Shown one piece after another: positions 132 through 9,716 of a stretch of 64,000 nucleotides of DNA. Made by a program: the position numbers and the translations under genes. The stretch is from Cochlodiniinecator piscidefendens. Its GTDB lineage: Bacteria > Pseudomonadota > Alphaproteobacteria > Rhodobacterales > Rhodobacteraceae. Position 1 is the stretch's first letter. Each line of letters starts with the position of its first letter. The stretch spans positions 1 through 64,000 of the forward strand of contig NZ_JAAOIE010000005.1 in the NCBI RefSeq assembly GCF_011326755.1, read 5' to 3'. The notes beneath the pieces were generated by a model, which made no database searches, was not told where the DNA came from, and saw only the letters and a program-made list of their open reading frames with translations.

Positions 132-446
132 TTATGCGCTGACTTGAACGTAAACTTTTCCGCCTTCAACCTTTGTGGGGTAGGTTTTGAGGTCAATACA
201 CACAGGAGCGGACAAAGCTTTACCTGTGACGATGTTAAATCGGCCCTGATGCAGCGGGCATTCTATTACGTCACCGGTTACCAATCCATCCTCAAGGTGT
301 TGCTCTTCGTGTGTGCACATACCATCCGTCGTGAAAAAGCCGTTTTCCGTGTTGTAGATCGCATATGTTTTTTCCTCATGATCCCACCGGGTGAGATCTT
401 CTTCGTCGATATCGTTAGTCGCGCAAGCTTCTATCCAATTACTCAT
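132..446 (-). CDS. Rieske-type [2Fe-2S] ferredoxin
   Basis: A 104-residue single-domain Rieske ferredoxin that should bind a [2Fe-2S] cluster through Cys44-x-His46 and Cys63-x2-His66, both clearly visible. The size and motif spacing match small ferredoxin subunits of ring-hydroxylating dioxygenase systems, which carry electrons from a reductase to the terminal oxygenase in the cytoplasm. It is the last gene seen in the minus-strand operon that holds a Rieske oxygenase at 3457-4569, so that enzyme is its likely partner (inference). It starts 9 bases after the PanB-like gene ends. A reductase is not seen in the window. Confidence 0.85.
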   Translation of the reverse strand: MSNWIEACATNDIDEEDLTRWDHEEKTYAIYNTENGFFTTDGMCTHEEQHLEDGLVTGDVIECPLHQGRFNIVTGKALSAPVCIDLKTYPTKVEGGKVYVQVSA

Positions 447-455
447 TTTTCTGTC

Positions 456-1295
456 CTACTGATGGAAGGGGTGGCGTTTATCTAGCGCCTCAAGGAGCTT
501 TTCATGTTCGCTTTGCGGCATGGAGACGGTGTGTGCTTTATCAGGAAACTGCCCGGATTTTACGTCGGATTGGAATCCAGACAGGGCCTTGAGGCGTTCA
601 TCAGCTAGGGCTTGTCGGATGCTTAACATATCACCCCAAGCTTTGGCGTGACGCGGTGGGTTTTCAACATCGCCGCAGATATCTTCCATGAAAGAAAAGA
701 TGATGTCGCCTCCGGACCCTGCACCTATGGAGTGTGTGATTAGGGAGGTCAGGGGGTTGATAGCCTCGAGGGCTTCGACGGCGACGCATTCGATTTCGAC
801 GGCTTTGGCACCGGCGTCTTCGTAACGACGACAGTGGTCTAAAATTGCGAGTGCTTCGTCAGCTGTTTTGCCAATGGTGCGCAATCCGCCTAGCTGTGTT
901 GACTTACGAGGGACAAGCCCAACGTGCCCTTGAACGCAGATCCCTTCGTTCGCAAGCAACTCAACAATCCCCATTCCGCGCGGGGTGAAGATGGCATCTG
1001 CCCCTTTTTCAGCGCACTTGATGGCAGCTGTTAGGCAAGCTTGTGGTTCATAGTATTGTCCCATGCTTTGTGACCCGGTGACAAATGTATGGGGTGCGCC
1101 TGTGCGAACGGCTTCAATATCCAAATCTGATATTGTGATCATATCGATGCCTAACGCTTCGCAGGCGGCGGCTTCTTCTTGAGATGTAGCCGAAACTTGG
1201 GTCATTTTTTGACCAGCAGCTTTGTTCGCTTGGAGGCATGCAAAGGTTAGATTGCGTTTAGCGGGATGCCCGCCATATGTGTAAATGTGTTTCAT
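456..1295 (-). CDS. PanB-like (ketopantoate hydroxymethyltransferase family) protein
   Basis: A 279-residue protein resembling PanB, the TIM-barrel enzyme that adds a hydroxymethyl group from methylene-tetrahydrofolate to 2-oxoisovalerate. Retained marks are GHVGLVPRK at 123-131, the ECV segment with the probable catalytic Glu169, and SIGAGSGGD at 189-197. By hand comparison with E. coli PanB, the GDSLG metal site, the LADLPF aspartate and the KIEGG segment are replaced, and about 20 residues before RTGAP are absent. It is therefore probably a paralogue with a different substrate rather than the pantothenate enzyme. It shares one base with the desaturase stop (TAATG), indicating translational coupling. 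Function is not assigned. Confidence 0.7.
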   Translation of the reverse strand: MKHIYTYGGHPAKRNLTFACLQANKAAGQKMTQVSATSQEEAAACEALGIDMITISDLDIEAVRTGAPHTFVTGSQSMGQYYEPQACLTAAIKCAEKGADAIFTPRGMGIVELLANEGICVQGHVGLVPRKSTQLGGLRTIGKTADEALAILDHCRRYEDAGAKAVEIECVAVEALEAINPLTSLITHSIGAGSGGDIIFSFMEDICGDVENPPRHAKAWGDMLSIRQALADERLKALSGFQSDVKSGQFPDKAHTVSMPQSEHEKLLEALDKRHPFHQ

Positions 1296-2320
1296 TACAT
1301 GGTGGCCTTTGCGATTGGGGTATATGTTCCATCAGTGACATGATGAGGTGCTTGGCGAATGGTCTTTGCCTTCGTGTTTTTGCCAAGGCTGCGACGGGTG
1401 ACAACGCTAAGAACTTCTAGATTGGTTTTCCAAAATCCCGGATCGGGTTCGGGGACTTGGTCTTCCACAGCGCTTTTCAGTCCGCGCAACGCATAGAATG
1501 GAATCTGAGGGTAGAGGTGGTGCTCAACATGGTTGTTCATATCCATGTAAAGGAAACGCCCGAGCCAGTTGGTGCGAAAACTGCGCGTGCTTTCCACAAT
1601 AGAAGGAGAGTTTTCCTGTAACTCCACGTGTTGGATTAGGGTGAACAATAACATTACAGGGGCGCCTAAAAGGCGGGGCAATACAAAAAACCAAATGGGC
1701 CAATAAATGCCAAAGGCAGCAAGCACAGGAATGGTTGCATAAATTGCAATGAAGATACGTGCATTGCGGGTTAATATTGGGAATTCAGATTGCGGAATAA
1801 CTGTGCGCATCATGTCTGAGTAGCGCTTAAACGCCAGTTCAAACATAACGGTGAGATTAAACCGCGCCAATGAAAGACCTGTGATTTCAAAGAGCCAGCC
1901 ACGTAGCGTCATAGGGGTGTCGAATGGCATTTGGCTGTCGATACCTACATGCCATGTATAGGTGTGGTGGTTGGTATGGGTATACCGGCGATGCAACGGT
2001 TCTTCGCCATAAAGCAATGATGTTACCCACAGCACAGTTTCGTTTAACCATCGGGTTTTGAAGGCTGTACCGTGGGCTGTTTCGTGACTTAGTGAGTAGG
2101 CGGGTACCGTTAGGAAAATGCCATACAAAAACATCGCAGGCCACATCCAGATCGACCCAAGTGAAAGCGAAATCAGCGTTCCGGTGCCAATTAAAAATCC
2201 AACCCATTGCAAAAGGTAGATTAAGCCATGGCGGTCTGAACGCCGCGCTAGGGATTTCATCAACTTTTTGTCGATTTTAATCCCGCTTGAGGCGGCATTT
2301 GTGGCTTTGAATGTGGTCAT
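1295..2320 (-). CDS. Membrane fatty acid desaturase family protein
   Basis: A 341-residue membrane di-iron desaturase/hydroxylase. The three histidine boxes of the family are visible: HETAHG at 79-84, HTNHH at 115-119 and HVEHH at 264-268. Hydrophobic segments near 35-75 and 190-230 would place the active site at the cytoplasmic face. Such enzymes insert double bonds or hydroxyls into acyl chains or related hydrophobic substrates, using electrons from a ferredoxin or cytochrome. The actual substrate is unknown. It lies 11 bases downstream of a second di-iron membrane enzyme, so the two probably act on the same hydrophobic compound (inference). Confidence 0.88.
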   Translation of the reverse strand: MTTFKATNAASSGIKIDKKLMKSLARRSDRHGLIYLLQWVGFLIGTGTLISLSLGSIWMWPAMFLYGIFLTVPAYSLSHETAHGTAFKTRWLNETVLWVTSLLYGEEPLHRRYTHTNHHTYTWHVGIDSQMPFDTPMTLRGWLFEITGLSLARFNLTVMFELAFKRYSDMMRTVIPQSEFPILTRNARIFIAIYATIPVLAAFGIYWPIWFFVLPRLLGAPVMLLFTLIQHVELQENSPSIVESTRSFRTNWLGRFLYMDMNNHVEHHLYPQIPFYALRGLKSAVEDQVPEPDPGFWKTNLEVLSVVTRRSLGKNTKAKTIRQAPHHVTDGTYTPIAKATM

Positions 2321-2331
2321 ATGTGGTGATC

Positions 2332-3363
2332 CTAAAGTTTCGCGTGCATTTTGCGTTTGCGGTCACGGGTGGTTTTTGTCGCCTCCTCAGAACCGTCGTG
2401 AAAACTGCCGAACCACTTGTCCCACGGCATTTCTGAGTTGCCGTAATTACATTCGTAGTAGCGGTGATGCAGTTGGTGAAAAAAGGCGCCAATCAACAGG
2501 CGTGACTTATCTTTGACCCAGATTGCTTCGTATCCGGAATGGGAGGAAGCCGCCCCAAGCATGAGCCAATACGTGAGAAACAACATATGAACAGGGTGAC
2601 TGGGTAGGATGAGTAAAATCAGCAGTGCGCTGATATATAGCATGTGTTCAACCGGATGCATCGACATCCCGGACCACGGCCCCGTGTTGACGTTGCGATG
2701 ATGGACCGAATGCACATGCCGATAAATAGGTGGCCAGTGCACCAAACGGTGAATGACGTAAAAATGCAGGCTTTGCCATAACGCGAGCAATGGGAAGAGC
2801 AAGATAAACCACAGCCAACCTTGCGAGAAGGAAAAAGTTGCGAGCGTATCGTTTGCATACAACCAACGAAATCCGACTTCATAGGCTGTTACAATCGGCA
2901 CGCCAGAGACCAGCGAATAGAACATGTTGTCCCATGTTTGATACCCAAATTTATAGAGAGCGTTCTTACGTGCGGACATAGGCCGTGGATCGAATTTTAG
3001 GCGCTTGCCTTGACCGTCGATGCCATAGAACCAAAAATGCAGACCGCCAGCGACAGTACTGAGCAACACTAAGTTGCGTAGCAATACCATCCCCATCCAA
3101 TCGAGGGAAAACACGACTTGGGCGTTGGTGACAGGTTGCAGCCAAAAGGCAACGAAAAAGGCGAGAGCCAGAAACATGGAGCGGTCGGAAACCTGAAGGT
3201 AATTGGTCCAAACCCATTTCATAAACACCACAGGCTGTGGCGGCCAAATGGCGAATGGAGCGTATTTTATCGGCAGTTCCGGGTGCCAATGCCACTCACG
3301 GCTCATGGCTGCGGGCTCGTCTTTCGTATCCACTGGTGGAGGAGATGTATCAGCAATTGTCAT
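2332..3363 (-). CDS. Sterol desaturase / fatty acid hydroxylase superfamily protein
   Basis: A 343-residue integral membrane protein of the sterol desaturase superfamily. The histidine clusters HFYVIHRLVH, HSVHHRN and HQLHHRYYE, which would bind the di-iron centre, are present together with several hydrophobic segments. Family members hydroxylate or desaturate sterols, fatty acids, carotenoids and alkylglycerol ethers. It sits between the Rieske oxygenase (93 bases upstream) and the desaturase (11 bases downstream) on the same strand. The substrate cannot be told from sequence. Confidence 0.87.
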   Translation of the reverse strand: MTIADTSPPPVDTKDEPAAMSREWHWHPELPIKYAPFAIWPPQPVVFMKWVWTNYLQVSDRSMFLALAFFVAFWLQPVTNAQVVFSLDWMGMVLLRNLVLLSTVAGGLHFWFYGIDGQGKRLKFDPRPMSARKNALYKFGYQTWDNMFYSLVSGVPIVTAYEVGFRWLYANDTLATFSFSQGWLWFILLFPLLALWQSLHFYVIHRLVHWPPIYRHVHSVHHRNVNTGPWSGMSMHPVEHMLYISALLILLILPSHPVHMLFLTYWLMLGAASSHSGYEAIWVKDKSRLLIGAFFHQLHHRYYECNYGNSEMPWDKWFGSFHDGSEEATKTTRDRKRKMHAKL

Positions 3364-3456
3364 TTTATGTCCGATCTAGAGTTTCAATTAAGAGTGAAAC
3401 TCACGCGGGCGGCGGCTCATATGGGTATTTTCGGCTGGGCTTGCGATACATCATCC

Positions 3457-4569
3457 TTACCCTTCTAAGGCTTCGAGGTAGATGTCATGAAAGTGACGCA
3501 TTGCGTGTTCCGAAATGTCGTGGGCGTCCGGGTCTGTGATGTACCAGCCTTGAATATACCCGCGTTGATGCAAACCTTTTTGAACATTTTCGCAGAGCGC
3601 GCGATCTTCTTGGGATACGATGTTACTTGACCAATCGGACCTCAGTTGGGCGCGCTTGCTCATTTCAGGGTCAGTTGGGGTGGCAGTTGTCATGGATAAG
3701 CTGCGGCGTTGGGTTAGGTCCGGTGTGACCGGGTCAAAGCGTGATGCATAAAACCCTTGTGTGCCGGGAAACTGACCAAAAACCGTGTTTGGAAACAAAA
3801 ACCAAAAATGACCAGTGGTGACATCGTGTTCCAAATCTAAGGGAAAGGCTTTATTTTCAGCCTTCATTGCAGTGGGCGCAACTTGGAAGGTGTAGTTTTC
3901 AAACAATGAAAACTTAGAGCTGGCGATGTCCATCATATCGTCAAACGAATGGTGCGCTGGACCGCAGTGGTGGCATTCTAGGTAGTTATCGAGCAGAACT
4001 TTCCAGTTTGCTTCGCAATCATATGTATGCCCGTATGCGACGTCACCTTCTACAATGAGCTCGGATAGGTTTGGGCAGTGCTCCAAAATCTGCGCTTCCA
4101 AGCCAGGAGCAAACTCTGCCAACGGTTTTGCATCTGGGTCGAGATTTACAAAAAGAAAATCGACGATCTGATCGACCCGCACCTCTGATAAGCAAATTTC
4201 AGACCGCTCGGGCGCGATTGTCGCATCGCGCTTTTGCATTCCGCGTAGATTACCCTCTAGCCCAAATGTCCATGCATGGTAGGGGCAGGTTACCACGCGT
4301 TTATTGCCCGAACCTTCGACCAATTGGTGTCCGCGGTGAGGGCACACATTATAAAACCCACGAATGATGTTGTCTTGCCCACGGACCAGAAAAATATTCT
4401 GATCAAAAATTGATGCGGTGACGAAGTCACCCGCATTCGCCAATTGTTGAGTGTGCCCGACGAACTGCCATGTGTTAAAGAACAGTTCTTTTTCTTTTTT
4501 CAATACATCTGGATCGGTATAGTATTTCGCAGCCAGTGTTCGGTCACGTACAGGGTTTGGGGTCAACAT
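3457..4569 (-). CDS. Rieske non-heme iron oxygenase, alpha subunit
   Basis: A 370-residue oxygenase alpha subunit. The N-terminal Rieske domain binds [2Fe-2S] through Cys76-x-His78 and Cys95-x2-His98. The C-terminal catalytic domain carries the iron site motif NYLECHHCGPAH, which resembles the choline monooxygenase and glycine-betaine monooxygenase (GbcA) group more than classical dioxygenases. That group often acts on methylated amines or small polar substrates. No beta subunit is present, consistent with that group. The operon ferredoxin at 132-446 is the probable electron donor. The gene begins 11 bases after the class II aldolase gene ends. Confidence 0.88.
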   Translation of the reverse strand: MLTPNPVRDRTLAAKYYTDPDVLKKEKELFFNTWQFVGHTQQLANAGDFVTASIFDQNIFLVRGQDNIIRGFYNVCPHRGHQLVEGSGNKRVVTCPYHAWTFGLEGNLRGMQKRDATIAPERSEICLSEVRVDQIVDFLFVNLDPDAKPLAEFAPGLEAQILEHCPNLSELIVEGDVAYGHTYDCEANWKVLLDNYLECHHCGPAHHSFDDMMDIASSKFSLFENYTFQVAPTAMKAENKAFPLDLEHDVTTGHFWFLFPNTVFGQFPGTQGFYASRFDPVTPDLTQRRSLSMTTATPTDPEMSKRAQLRSDWSSNIVSQEDRALCENVQKGLHQRGYIQGWYITDPDAHDISEHAMRHFHDIYLEALEG

Positions 4570-4580
4570 CGCTTGCTTCC

Positions 4581-5342
4581 TTAGCTGGCGTAGGAGGAGC
4601 CTTCTTCGTCGAGTACGGCTTTGATTTCGGAAAAATGTGCTTCGGCTTGACCGGGGTATGTTTCGATTTCATAAGCGGTCTTTTCGGCCAACTCGTCAGA
4701 CATGATGCGCAGCTCTTGTCCCGTTTGAAGGGCGCGAATGTAGGTTTCAGCAGCGCGCTCAAAGTAGTAGAGGCGGTTAAATGTATCAGCAACATCGTTG
4801 CCGGTGATCAAAATGCCATGATGCCCCATAATCAGTGTTTTGATTTTCGGATCTGCAAGCAATTCCGAACACCGCATGCCTTCGCTTTCGAACGCCAATC
4901 CGCCAAATTCGTCATCAATCGCGTACCGATTGAAAAACGTTGCGGTGTTTTGATCTATCGGTGGCAAACGGCTGTCTTTGAGGCAGGCCAAAACGGTTGC
5001 ATGGATTGAATGCACATGCATAACGCAACGCACATGGGGGCAAAGTCGATGAACCGATCCGTGCAAACCCCAAGCTGTCGGATCAGGTGCGCCGGGTTTT
5101 GAAAGTGTGTCCTTGTCTTTGGCGTCCAAATGCAGAAGATTGGACGCTTTGACCCTGCTGAAGTGAATCTGATTAGGGTTCATCAGAAACTCAGTGCCGT
5201 CTTCACTTACCGCGAGGCTAAAGTGATTGGCCACAGCCTCATGCATCCCAAGGCGTTCAGTCCAGCGAAAGGCAGCCGCCATATCGACGCGTTCTTGCCA
5301 GTGATCCATATTCGGGCGGTGGAGCGGGGTTGGTTCTGCCAT
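4581..5342 (-). CDS. Class II aldolase/adducin family protein
   Basis: A 253-residue member of the class II aldolase/adducin family, whose zinc-dependent enzymes cleave or form carbon-carbon bonds (fuculose- or ribulose-phosphate type) or decarboxylate. Zinc-binding histidines are visible in MHVHSIHATV and MGHHGIL. It is the first gene of the minus-strand operon, directly opposite the LysR gene at 5456, with 113 bases between. An aldolase leading an operon of three oxygenases suggests a catabolic route in which oxidation is followed by C-C cleavage (inference). The substrate is unknown. Confidence 0.88.
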   Translation of the reverse strand: MAEPTPLHRPNMDHWQERVDMAAAFRWTERLGMHEAVANHFSLAVSEDGTEFLMNPNQIHFSRVKASNLLHLDAKDKDTLSKPGAPDPTAWGLHGSVHRLCPHVRCVMHVHSIHATVLACLKDSRLPPIDQNTATFFNRYAIDDEFGGLAFESEGMRCSELLADPKIKTLIMGHHGILITGNDVADTFNRLYYFERAAETYIRALQTGQELRIMSDELAEKTAYEIETYPGQAEAHFSEIKAVLDEEGSSYAS

Positions 5343-5421
5343 GGGTATGTCCTTTGACGATGCTTTTCATACCGTGGCGATATGCGGCAGTCTTTACCAA
5401 CGAAAAAAATTAGGCCATGGT

Positions 5422-5436
5422 ATTAGTAATTCTAAT
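5422..5436. promoter_or_regulatory. Candidate LysR operator
   Basis: A 15-bp dyad, ATTAG-TAATT-CTAAT, lies in the divergent gap between the aldolase operon and the LysR gene and contains the T-N11-A spacing typical of LysR boxes (T5423, A5435). It is 20 bases from the LysR start and 80 from the operon start, as expected for an autoregulatory site. Confidence 0.5.
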
Positions 5437-5455
5437 GCATAACTTATGAGACAAA

Positions 5456-6349
5456 ATGCCTGATGCATCTCTTCCCCCGTTAAACTGGTTGCGCGCGTTT
5501 GAGGCGTCGGCGCGCCATTTATCGTTTACCAACGCGGCGCATGAACTCAACATGACGCAATCAGCGGTGAGTCAGCAAATTAAGTCGTTAGAGGGATATC
5601 TCGGGAAAACGCTATTTTACAGGCTAACCAGACGGTTAGAGCTGACAGATTCGGGGAAGCAGTACCTACCATGGGTGCAAGAGAGCTTTGAAGTTTTAAC
5701 ACGTGGTACGCGCCAGGTCGTTGGCGCCGATCGTAAACAAACGTTGCAGGTCGTTTCCAATCTTGCATTTACCGTGCATTTTATCGCGCCACGACTGCCC
5801 GTATTCGCGCAGCGGCATCCTGAAATTCGGCTCAATTTCACCACTCCGATTTGGCACATGGATCATTCGTCTCAATCGGCGGATTTAGAGATTCGTTATG
5901 GGCGAGAACCTGCGGCTGGGATTAAATGGGAGCTACTCACCAACGCGACGTATTTCCCGGTCTGTGGGCCGAATGATGATGTCACGCTTGAGACTTTGCC
6001 TGACCGGCTATTGTTTGATTGTGCTGCGTTGACATGCAATTGGGAAAGCTGGCTGCAGCATATCGGCCACCCATTAGATCAGAGTACGAATATCACTTAT
6101 GCCAGCACTTACGCTGTTTCGTTTTCCGCAGCGATTGCTGGGAGCGGGCTGGCCATTGGCCACGATATATTGGTGTCAGACATGTTAAAAGATGGCCGCC
6201 TAAAAGAGCCATTTTCACAACGCGTTCTGATGGAGGAAGCGTATTATCTTATCCATCCGGCGGGGCATGTTGCATCGCCTGCGTCGCAAGTTTTTTCAGA
6301 CTGGATCAGGGAAGAATTGGATATGCTGAAAGCGGAGTGGGCAGAATAA
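5456..6349 (+). CDS. LysR family transcriptional regulator
   Basis: A 297-residue LysR regulator with an N-terminal winged helix-turn-helix (FTNAAHELNMTQSAVSQQIK, about residues 22-41) and a C-terminal periplasmic-binding-like effector domain. The N-terminal PPLNWLRAFEASARHLSF pattern is that of the GcvA/AmpR-like subgroup. It is transcribed away from the oxygenase/aldolase operon at 132-5342 and most likely controls it in response to a pathway substrate (inference from arrangement). The ATG at 5456 follows a purine-rich stretch. Confidence 0.92.
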   Translation: MPDASLPPLNWLRAFEASARHLSFTNAAHELNMTQSAVSQQIKSLEGYLGKTLFYRLTRRLELTDSGKQYLPWVQESFEVLTRGTRQVVGADRKQTLQVVSNLAFTVHFIAPRLPVFAQRHPEIRLNFTTPIWHMDHSSQSADLEIRYGREPAAGIKWELLTNATYFPVCGPNDDVTLETLPDRLLFDCAALTCNWESWLQHIGHPLDQSTNITYASTYAVSFSAAIAGSGLAIGHDILVSDMLKDGRLKEPFSQRVLMEEAYYLIHPAGHVASPASQVFSDWIREELDMLKAEWAE

Positions 6350-6409
6350 AGTTTCGTTAGGTCAATATAAACGAAGCGGAATTTCTGCGCTTGAACATCG
6401 TAAAAACCC

Positions 6410-8245
6410 ATGGCACCTTTGGCCATGACGCAGAATGATATTAAGACTTGGGCAGAATGTGCCCCCCGCCTTGTTGCTGTCGCCGCTGGACGCGACGCTG
6501 CTGACCTCGTAATTCGCAATGGTAAATGGGTGAATGTTCACACCCGTGAAGTGCTTGAAGGTCATGATCTTGCCATTGCAGATGGGCGTTTTGCCTATTG
6601 CGGGCCAGATGCAAGCCACTGCATTGGCGACAAAACCGAAATCATTGATGCTGATGGCCAGTATATGATTCCGGGTCTTTGCGATGCGCATATGCATATT
6701 GAATCAGGGATGTTGACGCCCGCTGAATTTGCGCGTGCTGTTGCGCCGCATGGCACAACGTCGATGTTTACCGATCCGCATGAAATTGCCAATGTTTTGG
6801 GGCTTGAGGGTGTGCGTCTGATGCATGACGAGGCCATGCTACAGCCTGTTAATATCTTTACCCAAATGCCGTCCTGTGCGCCGTCAGCGCCGGGTTTGGA
6901 AACCACTGGATTTGAAATCACACCCGAAGACGTTGCCGAGGCAATGACTTGGCCGGGTATCATCGGCCTAGGGGAAATGATGAATTTCCCCGGCGTGGTG
7001 AATGGTGATCCGAAAATGCTGGCGGAAATTGCAGCAACCCAACGAGCAGGTAAAACTGTGGGCGGACATTACGCATCACCCGATCTTGGACCTGCGTTTC
7101 ATGCCTATGCCGCAGGTGGTCCCGCAGATGATCACGAAGGCACCTGCGAAGCGGACGCGATTGCACGTACGCGCCAGGGCATGCGCCATATGATGCGGTT
7201 GGGGTCGGCGTGGTATGATGTCGAAAGCCAAATCACGGCGGTCACGGAAAAGGGGTTGGATCCTCGTAATTTTATTTTGTGCACCGATGATTGTCATTCT
7301 GGAACCCTGGTGAATGATGGTCATATGAATCGCGTGGTACGACATGCAATTGAATGCGGGTGTGATCCGTTAATTGCGCTTCAGATGGCGACGATCAATA
7401 CCGCTACACACTTCGGGTTGGAGCGCGAACTTGGCTCCATCGCTCCGGGGCGTCGTGCTGATGTTATTCTGACGTCTGATTTGAAAACGCTACCGATTCA
7501 TCGTGTCATAGCGCGCGGCCATACTGTTGCGTTTGATGGTGTAATGTTGGCGACCTGCCCGCATCTGGAATGGCCCGATCACGCCCGCGATACCGTACAT
7601 ATGGGACGCGCGTTGGAAGACATAGATTTTCGGATCAAGGCACCGGAAGGGGCCAACAGCGTGACAGCGAATGTCATTGGAATGGTTGAAAATCAGGCTC
7701 CGACACGGGCTTTAGAAGCAAAGTTGGCGGTCAAAGATGGAATTGTTCCGGTGGACCCCGAAAATGACATCTGCCAAATCGCGCTTGTTGAGCGACACCA
7801 AGGCACGGGCGGGGTGGTCAACGCCTTTGTTTCAGGATTTGGTTACACCGGAAAAATGGCAATGGCGTCCACCGTTGCACATGACAGTCACCATATGATC
7901 GTTGTTGGAACATCCCACGCCGATATGGCGTTAGCGGCGAACCGTTTGCAAGAAGTGGGGGGCGGCGTCACCGTTTGGAAAGATGGGGAAGAACAGGCAT
8001 TGGTCGAGCTTCCCATTGCCGGATTGATGTCAGATTCTCCTGCTACCGAAGTTGCGGCCAAAGCCGAAGCGATGGGCAAAGCAATGGAGGCCTGCGGCTG
8101 CACGCTTAATAACGCGTATATGCAGCATTCCTTGCTCGCGCTTGTTGTCATACCTGAGTTACGCATTTCTGATTTGGGTTTGGTTGACGTGCGCACATTT
8201 GAACTGACACCGCTGTTTAAAAAGGAAAATAACAATGACAGCTGA
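6410..8245 (+). CDS. ade: Adenine deaminase
   Basis: A 611-residue amidohydrolase-fold adenine deaminase, converting adenine to hypoxanthine and ammonia for purine salvage. Visible family marks are the metal-binding DAHMHIESGML, the TDPHEIANVLG segment, LGEMMNFPGV, and CTDDCHSGTL, with the C-terminal domain ending in LALVVIPELRISDLGL. The ATG at 6410 is kept, but the ATG at 6425 is an equally possible start because neither has a strong ribosome site. The gene overlaps the AMP nucleosidase start by 11 bases, so the two are translationally coupled. Confidence 0.93.
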   Translation: MAPLAMTQNDIKTWAECAPRLVAVAAGRDAADLVIRNGKWVNVHTREVLEGHDLAIADGRFAYCGPDASHCIGDKTEIIDADGQYMIPGLCDAHMHIESGMLTPAEFARAVAPHGTTSMFTDPHEIANVLGLEGVRLMHDEAMLQPVNIFTQMPSCAPSAPGLETTGFEITPEDVAEAMTWPGIIGLGEMMNFPGVVNGDPKMLAEIAATQRAGKTVGGHYASPDLGPAFHAYAAGGPADDHEGTCEADAIARTRQGMRHMMRLGSAWYDVESQITAVTEKGLDPRNFILCTDDCHSGTLVNDGHMNRVVRHAIECGCDPLIALQMATINTATHFGLERELGSIAPGRRADVILTSDLKTLPIHRVIARGHTVAFDGVMLATCPHLEWPDHARDTVHMGRALEDIDFRIKAPEGANSVTANVIGMVENQAPTRALEAKLAVKDGIVPVDPENDICQIALVERHQGTGGVVNAFVSGFGYTGKMAMASTVAHDSHHMIVVGTSHADMALAANRLQEVGGGVTVWKDGEEQALVELPIAGLMSDSPATEVAAKAEAMGKAMEACGCTLNNAYMQHSLLALVVIPELRISDLGLVDVRTFELTPLFKKENNNDS

Positions 8246-9716
8246 TTTTACACTATCGGTGGAAACACCACCAATTTCTGAGCACATAGAGTTTACTGAC
8301 AGCAAAGCGGCTGTTGCGCATTTATGTGCGCTTTATGAAGAAGCAACAAAGTTCCTATGCGAAAAATTTTCGAGCAAAGTAACTGGGCCACGCCCCTCAG
8401 AACGTTTTCGGGCCTTTTATCCAGAGATACGGCTACACACGACAAGTTATGCAACGGCTGACAGTCGCCTTGCCTTCGGTCACGTCGCGAGCCCCGGTCA
8501 ATACGCAACAACAGTGACTCGGCCGGATTTGTTCAAAAGCTACCTCGAACAGCAAATTGATCTGTTGGTTTGTAACCACGGCGTTTCTGTTCGTGTTGGC
8601 CCATCAACCACGCCAATCCCAGTGCATTTTGCCGTGGCCAATGATGCAGGTGTTACGGTGCCTCAGGATGGCTGTATGCAGTACCCGTTGCGCGATATCT
8701 TCGATGTACCGGACCTCGCTACAACGAACGATGACATCGTTAACGGCATGGAGATGACTTACCCTGACGGGGCGCTTCCTTTGGCGCCATTTACGGCACA
8801 GCGTGTCGACTATTCCTTAGCACGGCTGTCACATTACACCGCAACGGCACCTGAGCATTTCCAAAACCACGTGCTGTTTACGAATTACCAGTTTTACGTC
8901 GAGGAGTTCGAAGCGTTTGCACGGGCGTCACTTGCTGATCCGGATAGCGGATATAGCAGCTTTGTTTCGACCGGAAATGTTGAAATCACAAAGCCAGACG
9001 AAGCATGTCCTCAGCCCGCTAAGTTGCCGCAAATGCCAACCTATCATCTTAAGCGACCAGATGGATCTGGGATCACTTTGGTGAACATTGGGGTTGGCCC
9101 GTCAAATGCGAAAACGGCAACTGATCATATTGCGGTTCTTCGTCCGCATGCATGGTTGATGGTTGGGCATTGCGCTGGTCTTCGAAATTCCCAAAGCTTG
9201 GGAGATTTCGTGTTGGCGCACTCTTATCTACGCGAAGACCACGTGTTGGATGATGATCTGCCTGTTTGGGTTCCGATCCCGCCATTGGCTGAAATTCAAA
9301 TCGCGCTCGAACAGGCCGTTGCGGATGTCACTGAACTTGAGGGATATGAGCTAAAGCGGATTATGCGAACTGGTACAGTAGCTACCATTGACAACCGCAA
9401 CTGGGAGTTGCGCGATCAATCTGGCCCTGTTCAAAGGCTCAGCCAATCACGCGCGGTTGCCTTAGACATGGAAAGTGCAACAATTGCCGCGAACGGTTTC
9501 CGGTTTCGTGTGCCATATGGAACGCTTCTTTGTGTATCAGATAAGCCGCTGCATGGAGAGCTTAAGCTGCCGGGTATGGCATCAGAGTTTTACAAAACAC
9601 AGGTCTCGCGCCATCTAGAAATTGGAATCCGGGCAATGGAAACGCTTCGGGAAATGCCGCTTGAGCGTATCCATTCCCGTAAATTGCGTAGCTTTGAAGA
9701 GACAGCTTTCCTTTAA
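8235..9716 (+). CDS. amn: AMP nucleosidase
   Basis: A 493-residue AMP nucleosidase that hydrolyses AMP to adenine and ribose 5-phosphate in the cytoplasm. Its length fits the long bacterial Amn enzymes, with an N-terminal Amn-specific domain and a C-terminal nucleoside-phosphorylase-like domain (IGVGPSNAKTATDHIAVLRP, later ALDMESATIAANGFRFRVPYG, where the Glu of the ESAT segment contacts ribose in the family). Coupling to adenine deaminase gives a two-step route from AMP to hypoxanthine. Confidence 0.93.
   Translation: MTADFTLSVETPPISEHIEFTDSKAAVAHLCALYEEATKFLCEKFSSKVTGPRPSERFRAFYPEIRLHTTSYATADSRLAFGHVASPGQYATTVTRPDLFKSYLEQQIDLLVCNHGVSVRVGPSTTPIPVHFAVANDAGVTVPQDGCMQYPLRDIFDVPDLATTNDDIVNGMEMTYPDGALPLAPFTAQRVDYSLARLSHYTATAPEHFQNHVLFTNYQFYVEEFEAFARASLADPDSGYSSFVSTGNVEITKPDEACPQPAKLPQMPTYHLKRPDGSGITLVNIGVGPSNAKTATDHIAVLRPHAWLMVGHCAGLRNSQSLGDFVLAHSYLREDHVLDDDLPVWVPIPPLAEIQIALEQAVADVTELEGYELKRIMRTGTVATIDNRNWELRDQSGPVQRLSQSRAVALDMESATIAANGFRFRVPYGTLLCVSDKPLHGELKLPGMASEFYKTQVSRHLEIGIRAMETLREMPLERIHSRKLRSFEETAFL

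Follow-up and report, generated by a model that had tools for sequence, protein, structure and literature searches.

Which compound is processed by a set of six closely packed genes at a contig edge of Cochlodiniinecator piscidefendens, and with what chemistry? The genes encode an aldolase-like protein (ald), a Rieske oxygenase (RO), a sterol-desaturase-like hydroxylase (SDH), a fatty-acid-desaturase-fold oxygenase (FAD), a PanB-like protein (PanBL) and a ferredoxin, and lie at positions 132 to 5342 of the window (the whole 64,000-nucleotide stretch analyzed, positions 1 to 64,000 of contig NZ_JAAOIE010000005.1). The preferred reading, with a probability of about 0.42, is a LysR-controlled catabolic operon made of two operon types joined around a conserved ald, in which interchangeable iron oxygenases would oxidize a small polar methylated compound and PanBL and ald would process the product. 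An earlier note on this DNA, made from the sequence alone, had described an oxygenase-rich operon without a named pathway; no characterized pathway with this gene set was found in the literature searched, and a catabolic role is probable.

All six open reading frames were confirmed on the minus strand, in the order ald (4581..5342), RO (3457..4569), SDH (2332..3363), FAD (1295..2320), PanBL (456..1295) and ferredoxin (132..446), with intergenic gaps of 11, 93, 11, -1 and 9 bp from ald to ferredoxin. A divergent region of 113 bp (5343..5455), presumed to control both transcription units, separates ald from the plus-strand gene of a GcvA-like, LysR-family protein (5456..6349; PF00126 and PF03466), the presumed operon regulator. 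The six Pfam family labels exceeded their curated cut-offs, and the coordinates, gaps and metal motifs were all as expected for the tightly packed operon facing a LysR gene that had been proposed. A promoter scan displayed no site in the divergent region (5343..5455), and promoter and terminator scans yielded hits no more numerous than in shuffled sequences.

The operon appeared modular across relatives. The genome (3.7 Mb, 21 contigs) had its matched relatives within Rhodobacterales, and the exact six-gene set was present in no other genome searched. Orthologues of ald were found in 188 of 296 family genomes, while those of RO (56-75% identity) and FAD (55-69% identity) were found in 4 and 8, respectively, of the 295 other family genomes. 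Two four-gene arrangements recurred. Type A, with LysR divergent from ald-FAD-PanBL-ferredoxin, was present in G082, G098 and G045, with variants reduced to ald-FAD by an interrupting contig end (G195) or without ald (G176 and G194); FAD-PanBL-ferredoxin was also present in a genome from another family (G712). Type B, with LysR divergent from ald-RO-PanBL-SDH, was present in G038, G200 and G073. Other arrangements included ald-FAD-ferredoxin (G414), ald-SDH and, in Ruegeria relatives, LysR divergent from dehydrogenase-PanBL-SDH, with ald downstream in one case. A LysR protein with 40-50% identity faced ald in most relatives. Because colinear subsets of the genes recurred in other genera, the arrangement is not due to chance. 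The earlier note would have given up its reading if the genes did not travel together; this was half the case, since the six travelled in two subsets of four genes each and not as a unit.

The window PanBL was 73-75% identical to type B copies and only 39-41% identical to type A copies of the family, while its position was that of type A. As a fusion would leave such a pattern, we infer that the window operon joins types A and B. No complete FAD operon of the type A group lacked the ferredoxin gene, and none of the three type B operons, which carry RO, had it; the most likely partner of the ferredoxin is therefore FAD and not RO. In one ald-RO-PanBL-SDH operon (L120 9808-11502), a tandem pair of PanB-like genes was observed, 75% and 59% identical to the window PanBL.

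The oxygenases all retained their metal-binding motifs. RO (PF00355 and PF00848, 71 and 81 bits for the Rieske and Ring_hydroxyl_A domains) kept the Rieske motif C-x-H...C-x2-H and the mononuclear iron motif EC-HC-x3-H, with Glu in the EC-HC position. Its best solved relative was the carnitine monooxygenase CntA (6y8j, 226 bits, full length), while its score of 118.6 bits failed the GbcA equivalog cut-off of 670, so that the 'GbcA-like' label given before was loose, although the closeness to carnitine monooxygenase stands. RO thus shares with the quaternary-amine Rieske oxygenases CntA and GbcA the full-length CntA match and both iron motifs, but differs from these systems in that the GbcA cut-off is far from reached and a CntB/GbcB reductase is not in the operon; no flavin mononucleotide/2Fe-2S reductase was found among the genes at 132-9716. 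SDH, a membrane di-iron hydroxylase of the sterol desaturase/fatty acid hydroxylase family (FA_hydroxylase PF04116, 83 bits), displayed intact His boxes (HSVHH/HQLHH) and has three paralogues in the same genome. FAD (FA_desaturase PF00487, 114 bits) displayed intact His boxes as well (HETAH/HTNHH/HVEHH). The ferredoxin (Pfam Rieske, 59 bits) kept the motif CTH...CPLH and belonged to the MocE family of Rieske 2Fe-2S ferredoxins (TIGR02377, 138.5 bits against a cut-off of 136.15), its gene following FAD or FAD-PanBL in relatives.

The FAD-ferredoxin pair resembles part of mocDEF, the rhizopine-type oxygenase complex of rhizobia. It is proposed that mocDEF converts 3-O-methyl-scyllo-inosamine into scyllo-inosamine (PMC2593844, PMC3538637), and mocDEF homologues of R. 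mesoamericanum are induced by a root exudate in which pinitol, an O-methyl inositol, had the highest concentration of the components measured (PMC5789663). With mocDEF of R. leguminosarum and S. meliloti, the window operon shares a MocD-like desaturase-fold oxygenase and a MocE-family ferredoxin within one operon, and with the mocDEF clusters of rhizobial plasmids also the PanB-like gene alongside. On these plasmids, PanBL directly follows mocDEF (fatty acid desaturase, MocE ferredoxin, reductase, PanBL), and a LacI regulator and a xylose-isomerase-like protein adjoin the cluster. Identities between the window and the rhizobial clusters were 33% for FAD (with the R. leguminosarum protein in the MocD position), 54% for the ferredoxin and 37% for PanBL. 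In one rhizobial mocDEF cluster (L126 4284-7801), the PanB-like gene immediately downstream was annotated as pantothenate biosynthesis; no mention of it was seen in the relevant passages of the mocDEF papers. The window differs from mocDEF by the lack of an adjacent MocF reductase, LacI regulator and sugar genes, by an oxygenase identity of only 33%, and by its LysR control and additional RO, SDH and aldolase-like genes. The MocF-type ferredoxin reductase was absent from the window operon, which abuts the contig edge, and a MocF-like reductase (39%) was encoded elsewhere in the genome, on contig C16.

The window begins at the contig edge, and its bases 1-131 are a dispersed repeat, so the 3' limit of the operon is uncertain and a further gene beyond the ferredoxin is possible. 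The repeat, of about 120 bp, lies directly after the ferredoxin stop codon and recurs in contig C15, at its end (100%), and in the interior of contig C12 (95%); no transposase open reading frame was found near the copy inside C12.

The PanB-like protein belonged to a subfamily distinct from genuine PanB. PanBL (PF02548, Pantoate_transf, 112 bits against a cut-off of 28.7) failed the panB equivalog cut-off (84.8 against 207.55 bits), and PanB was the top Protein Data Bank fold match of its AlphaFold model (predicted local distance difference test score of 86.9). In alignments to E. coli PanB and to the PanB of the same genome, Ser, Phe and Pro stood in place of its Asp84, Lys112 and Glu114. Of 47 subfamily sequences, 46 had another residue in place of Asp84, and the remaining one was a genuine PanB that had entered the set. 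The first Asp of PanB (Asp45) was retained in only 22 of the 47, the window included, and the loop after it was deleted. In PanB, magnesium is held by Asp45, Asp84 and Glu114. PanBL thus shares with PanB (KPHMT) the fold, the Pfam family and a His and a Glu (E. coli positions 136 and 181) that are invariant in the subfamily, but differs by the replaced residues, the missing loop and the failed equivalog score; a second Glu, two residues before the position of Glu181, is invariant in the PanBL subfamily only. Judging from the aligned residues, the catalytic site of PanB is unusable in this subfamily, and its annotation as a biosynthetic enzyme is wrong. Pantothenate synthesis by PanBL was ruled out by these lost residues and by a separate genuine panB in the genome (C12:738633, 347 bits).

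A similar loss was found in ald, which belonged to a family without assigned function (Aldolase_II PF00596, 130 bits; NCBIfam PRK07490, 398 bits against a cut-off of 260). In residue checks against a manually entered FucA sequence, the three metal-binding His were retained, while the equivalent of the general acid/base Glu73 was Ala in the window and Ala or Thr in relatives, and Asn29, Thr43, Gly44, Ser71, Ser72, Tyr113 and Gly132 were changed as well. Pyruvic oxime dioxygenase, a class II aldolase-like Fe(II) dioxygenase, also lacks Glu73 (PMC5216522), and Glu73 was likewise missing from NovR, a solved relative. These Fe(II) enzymes share with ald the Aldolase_II domain, the three metal His and the absence of Glu73, a likeness that lies in domain and residues, and ald may therefore act as an oxygenase or a decarboxylase, not as an aldolase. 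The C-C bond splitting and the hydroxymethyl transfer that had been suggested for ald and PanBL came from the family names, and the residue checks supported neither; the chemistry of both supposed C-C-bond enzymes probably differs from that of the families. In another genome (L236 4675-5784), a gene resembling those for TmpA and gamma-butyrobetaine dioxygenase directly follows an ald orthologue and a 3-hydroxyisobutyrate-dehydrogenase-like gene. This TauD-family gene was closest to 2-trimethylaminoethylphosphonate and gamma-butyrobetaine dioxygenases, with scores below their cut-offs.

PanBL was frequently accompanied by oxygenases elsewhere. An iron oxygenase gene (FAD, SDH, RO, PhyH, TauD or HD type) was present within about 4.5 kb of 11 of 19 other PanBL loci, a count that comes without a background rate; the loci came from 337 genomes that sample the class without bias, with the window copy and one genuine PanB omitted and a tandem pair counted as one. 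In Bradyrhizobium and Mesorhizobium loci the oxygenase was SDH, together with a Rieske ferredoxin, a reductase and a ribokinase. Contig C12 of the same genome harbored a second PanBL operon (L125 7008-10508) of an HD-type (inositol-oxygenase-family) protein, SDH and PanBL with a divergent LysR, and a Phaeobacter inhibens plasmid carried the matching HD-SDH-PanBL arrangement. One locus combined PanBL and a MocE-type ferredoxin at a distance of 3 kb from an inositol gene that scored as a true IolC-IolJ (719 bits, cut-off 600). An inositol catabolic neighborhood with an IolC-IolJ fusion and an IolE-like gene, holding a MocE-type ferredoxin and a PanB-like gene (L176 4158-12114), was noted as a candidate O-methyl-inositol degradation locus. 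It is conceivable, though doubtful, that the subfamily is an oxygenase-coupled one-carbon enzyme, which would accept a hydroxymethyl or formaldehyde unit from MocD-, SDH-, RO- or PhyH-type oxygenases, for transfer to folate or another acceptor, making oxidative demethylation concerted and non-toxic; the window operon would then be its two-oxygenase version.

The same features were weighed for a reading without demethylation, in which the oxygenases would serve as alternative hydroxylases of polar substrates without methylation, with PanBL and ald as true C-C lyases (retro-aldol) whose active sites have changed. The PanB/PEP-mutase-type fold of PanBL with its invariant His and Glu and the gained second Glu, the metal triad kept in ald, and the pairing of PanBL with oxygenase types (PhyH and HD) that are not specific to demethylation are consistent with it. 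The loss of the PanB metal ligands Asp84 and Glu114, of Lys112 and of FucA Glu73 implies that the known mechanisms of lyases are not transferable, and this reading was considered rather unlikely.

Tailoring of a lipid, sterol or sphingoid by the two membrane di-iron enzymes is very improbable: the names of PF04116 and PF00487 derive from lipid enzymes, but the nearest PF00487 neighborhoods were mocDEF-like, the contexts included IolC as well as kinases and sugar isomerases, none of the neighborhoods examined showed a gene of lipid biosynthesis, and a LysR-faced operon with a Rieske ferredoxin would be typical of catabolism. The earlier note had proposed a lipid-like or methylated substrate; the methylated alternative is plausible, given the MocD/MocE-like pair and the CntA-closest RO, while the lipid-like one is disfavored by the sugar, inositol and quaternary amine contexts of relatives. 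Least probable of all is catabolism of homarine (N-methylpicolinate) through homABCDER or a variant, an operon presumably widespread in Rhodobacterales and SAR11, against the sporadic occurrence of RO (4/295) and FAD (8/295) in the family. The hom genes form a published marine bacterial operon (Ferrer-Gonzalez 2026, cited in PMC13390433), and a LysR regulator with several oxygenases would suit a methylated pyridine.

Several points weigh against oxidation of a methylated compound in the window operon. No oxygenase was detected near 8 of the 19 PanBL loci, most of which were outside sugar contexts, and the immediate surroundings of the operon showed no genes for the transport of inositol, sugars or quaternary amines. 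The demethylase role of mocDEF is itself a literature model, and hydroxylation or desaturation by SDH and MocD-fold enzymes also extends to unmethylated compounds. No redox partner of RO was identified. Concerning the substrate, the CntA-like RO and the TauD-family gene beside an ald relative are weak hints of quaternary amines, and the mocDEF and inositol contexts are weak hints of O-methyl polyols; no choice was made between the two.

For this probably catabolic operon, we infer a substrate class, an order of reactions, an electron path and roles for PanBL and ald from gene content, motifs, module structure and lost active sites. The LysR protein would sense the substrate and switch the operon on. 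The MocF-like reductase encoded on C16 would reduce the ferredoxin, which would feed the MocD-like FAD, while RO and SDH would act in parallel or in sequence. The oxygenases would hydroxylate or oxidatively demethylate a small polar methylated compound (an O-methyl polyol or an N-methyl/quaternary amine). PanBL would handle the released one-carbon unit or the hydroxylated intermediate, and ald, probably an Fe(II) oxygenase or lyase, would open, cleave or decarboxylate the remainder.

The adenine deaminase (ade) and AMP nucleosidase (amn) genes adjoin the LysR gene in the window (6410-9716). Several related operons, the window's included, adjoin ade and amn, which suggests a shared position for the exchange of oxygenase modules; the site beside ade-amn looks like a stable position with variable oxygenase cargo. 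A functional link to adenine deaminase and AMP nucleosidase was rejected, as ald and ade-amn stay neighbors in several relatives with or without other oxygenase genes, which was read as a shared position and not a shared pathway.

The most interesting part of the locus is the misannotated PanB-like subfamily, frequently found beside oxygenases. Among the proteins of marine bacteria and of hundreds of rhizobial plasmids that are annotated as '3-methyl-2-oxobutanoate hydroxymethyltransferase', members of this subfamily are frequent. Knowing the function of PanBL would correct many of these annotations and could explain the disposal of methyl groups in mocDEF-like systems. With both oxygenase types beside one PanB-like gene, the window operon is a natural test case.

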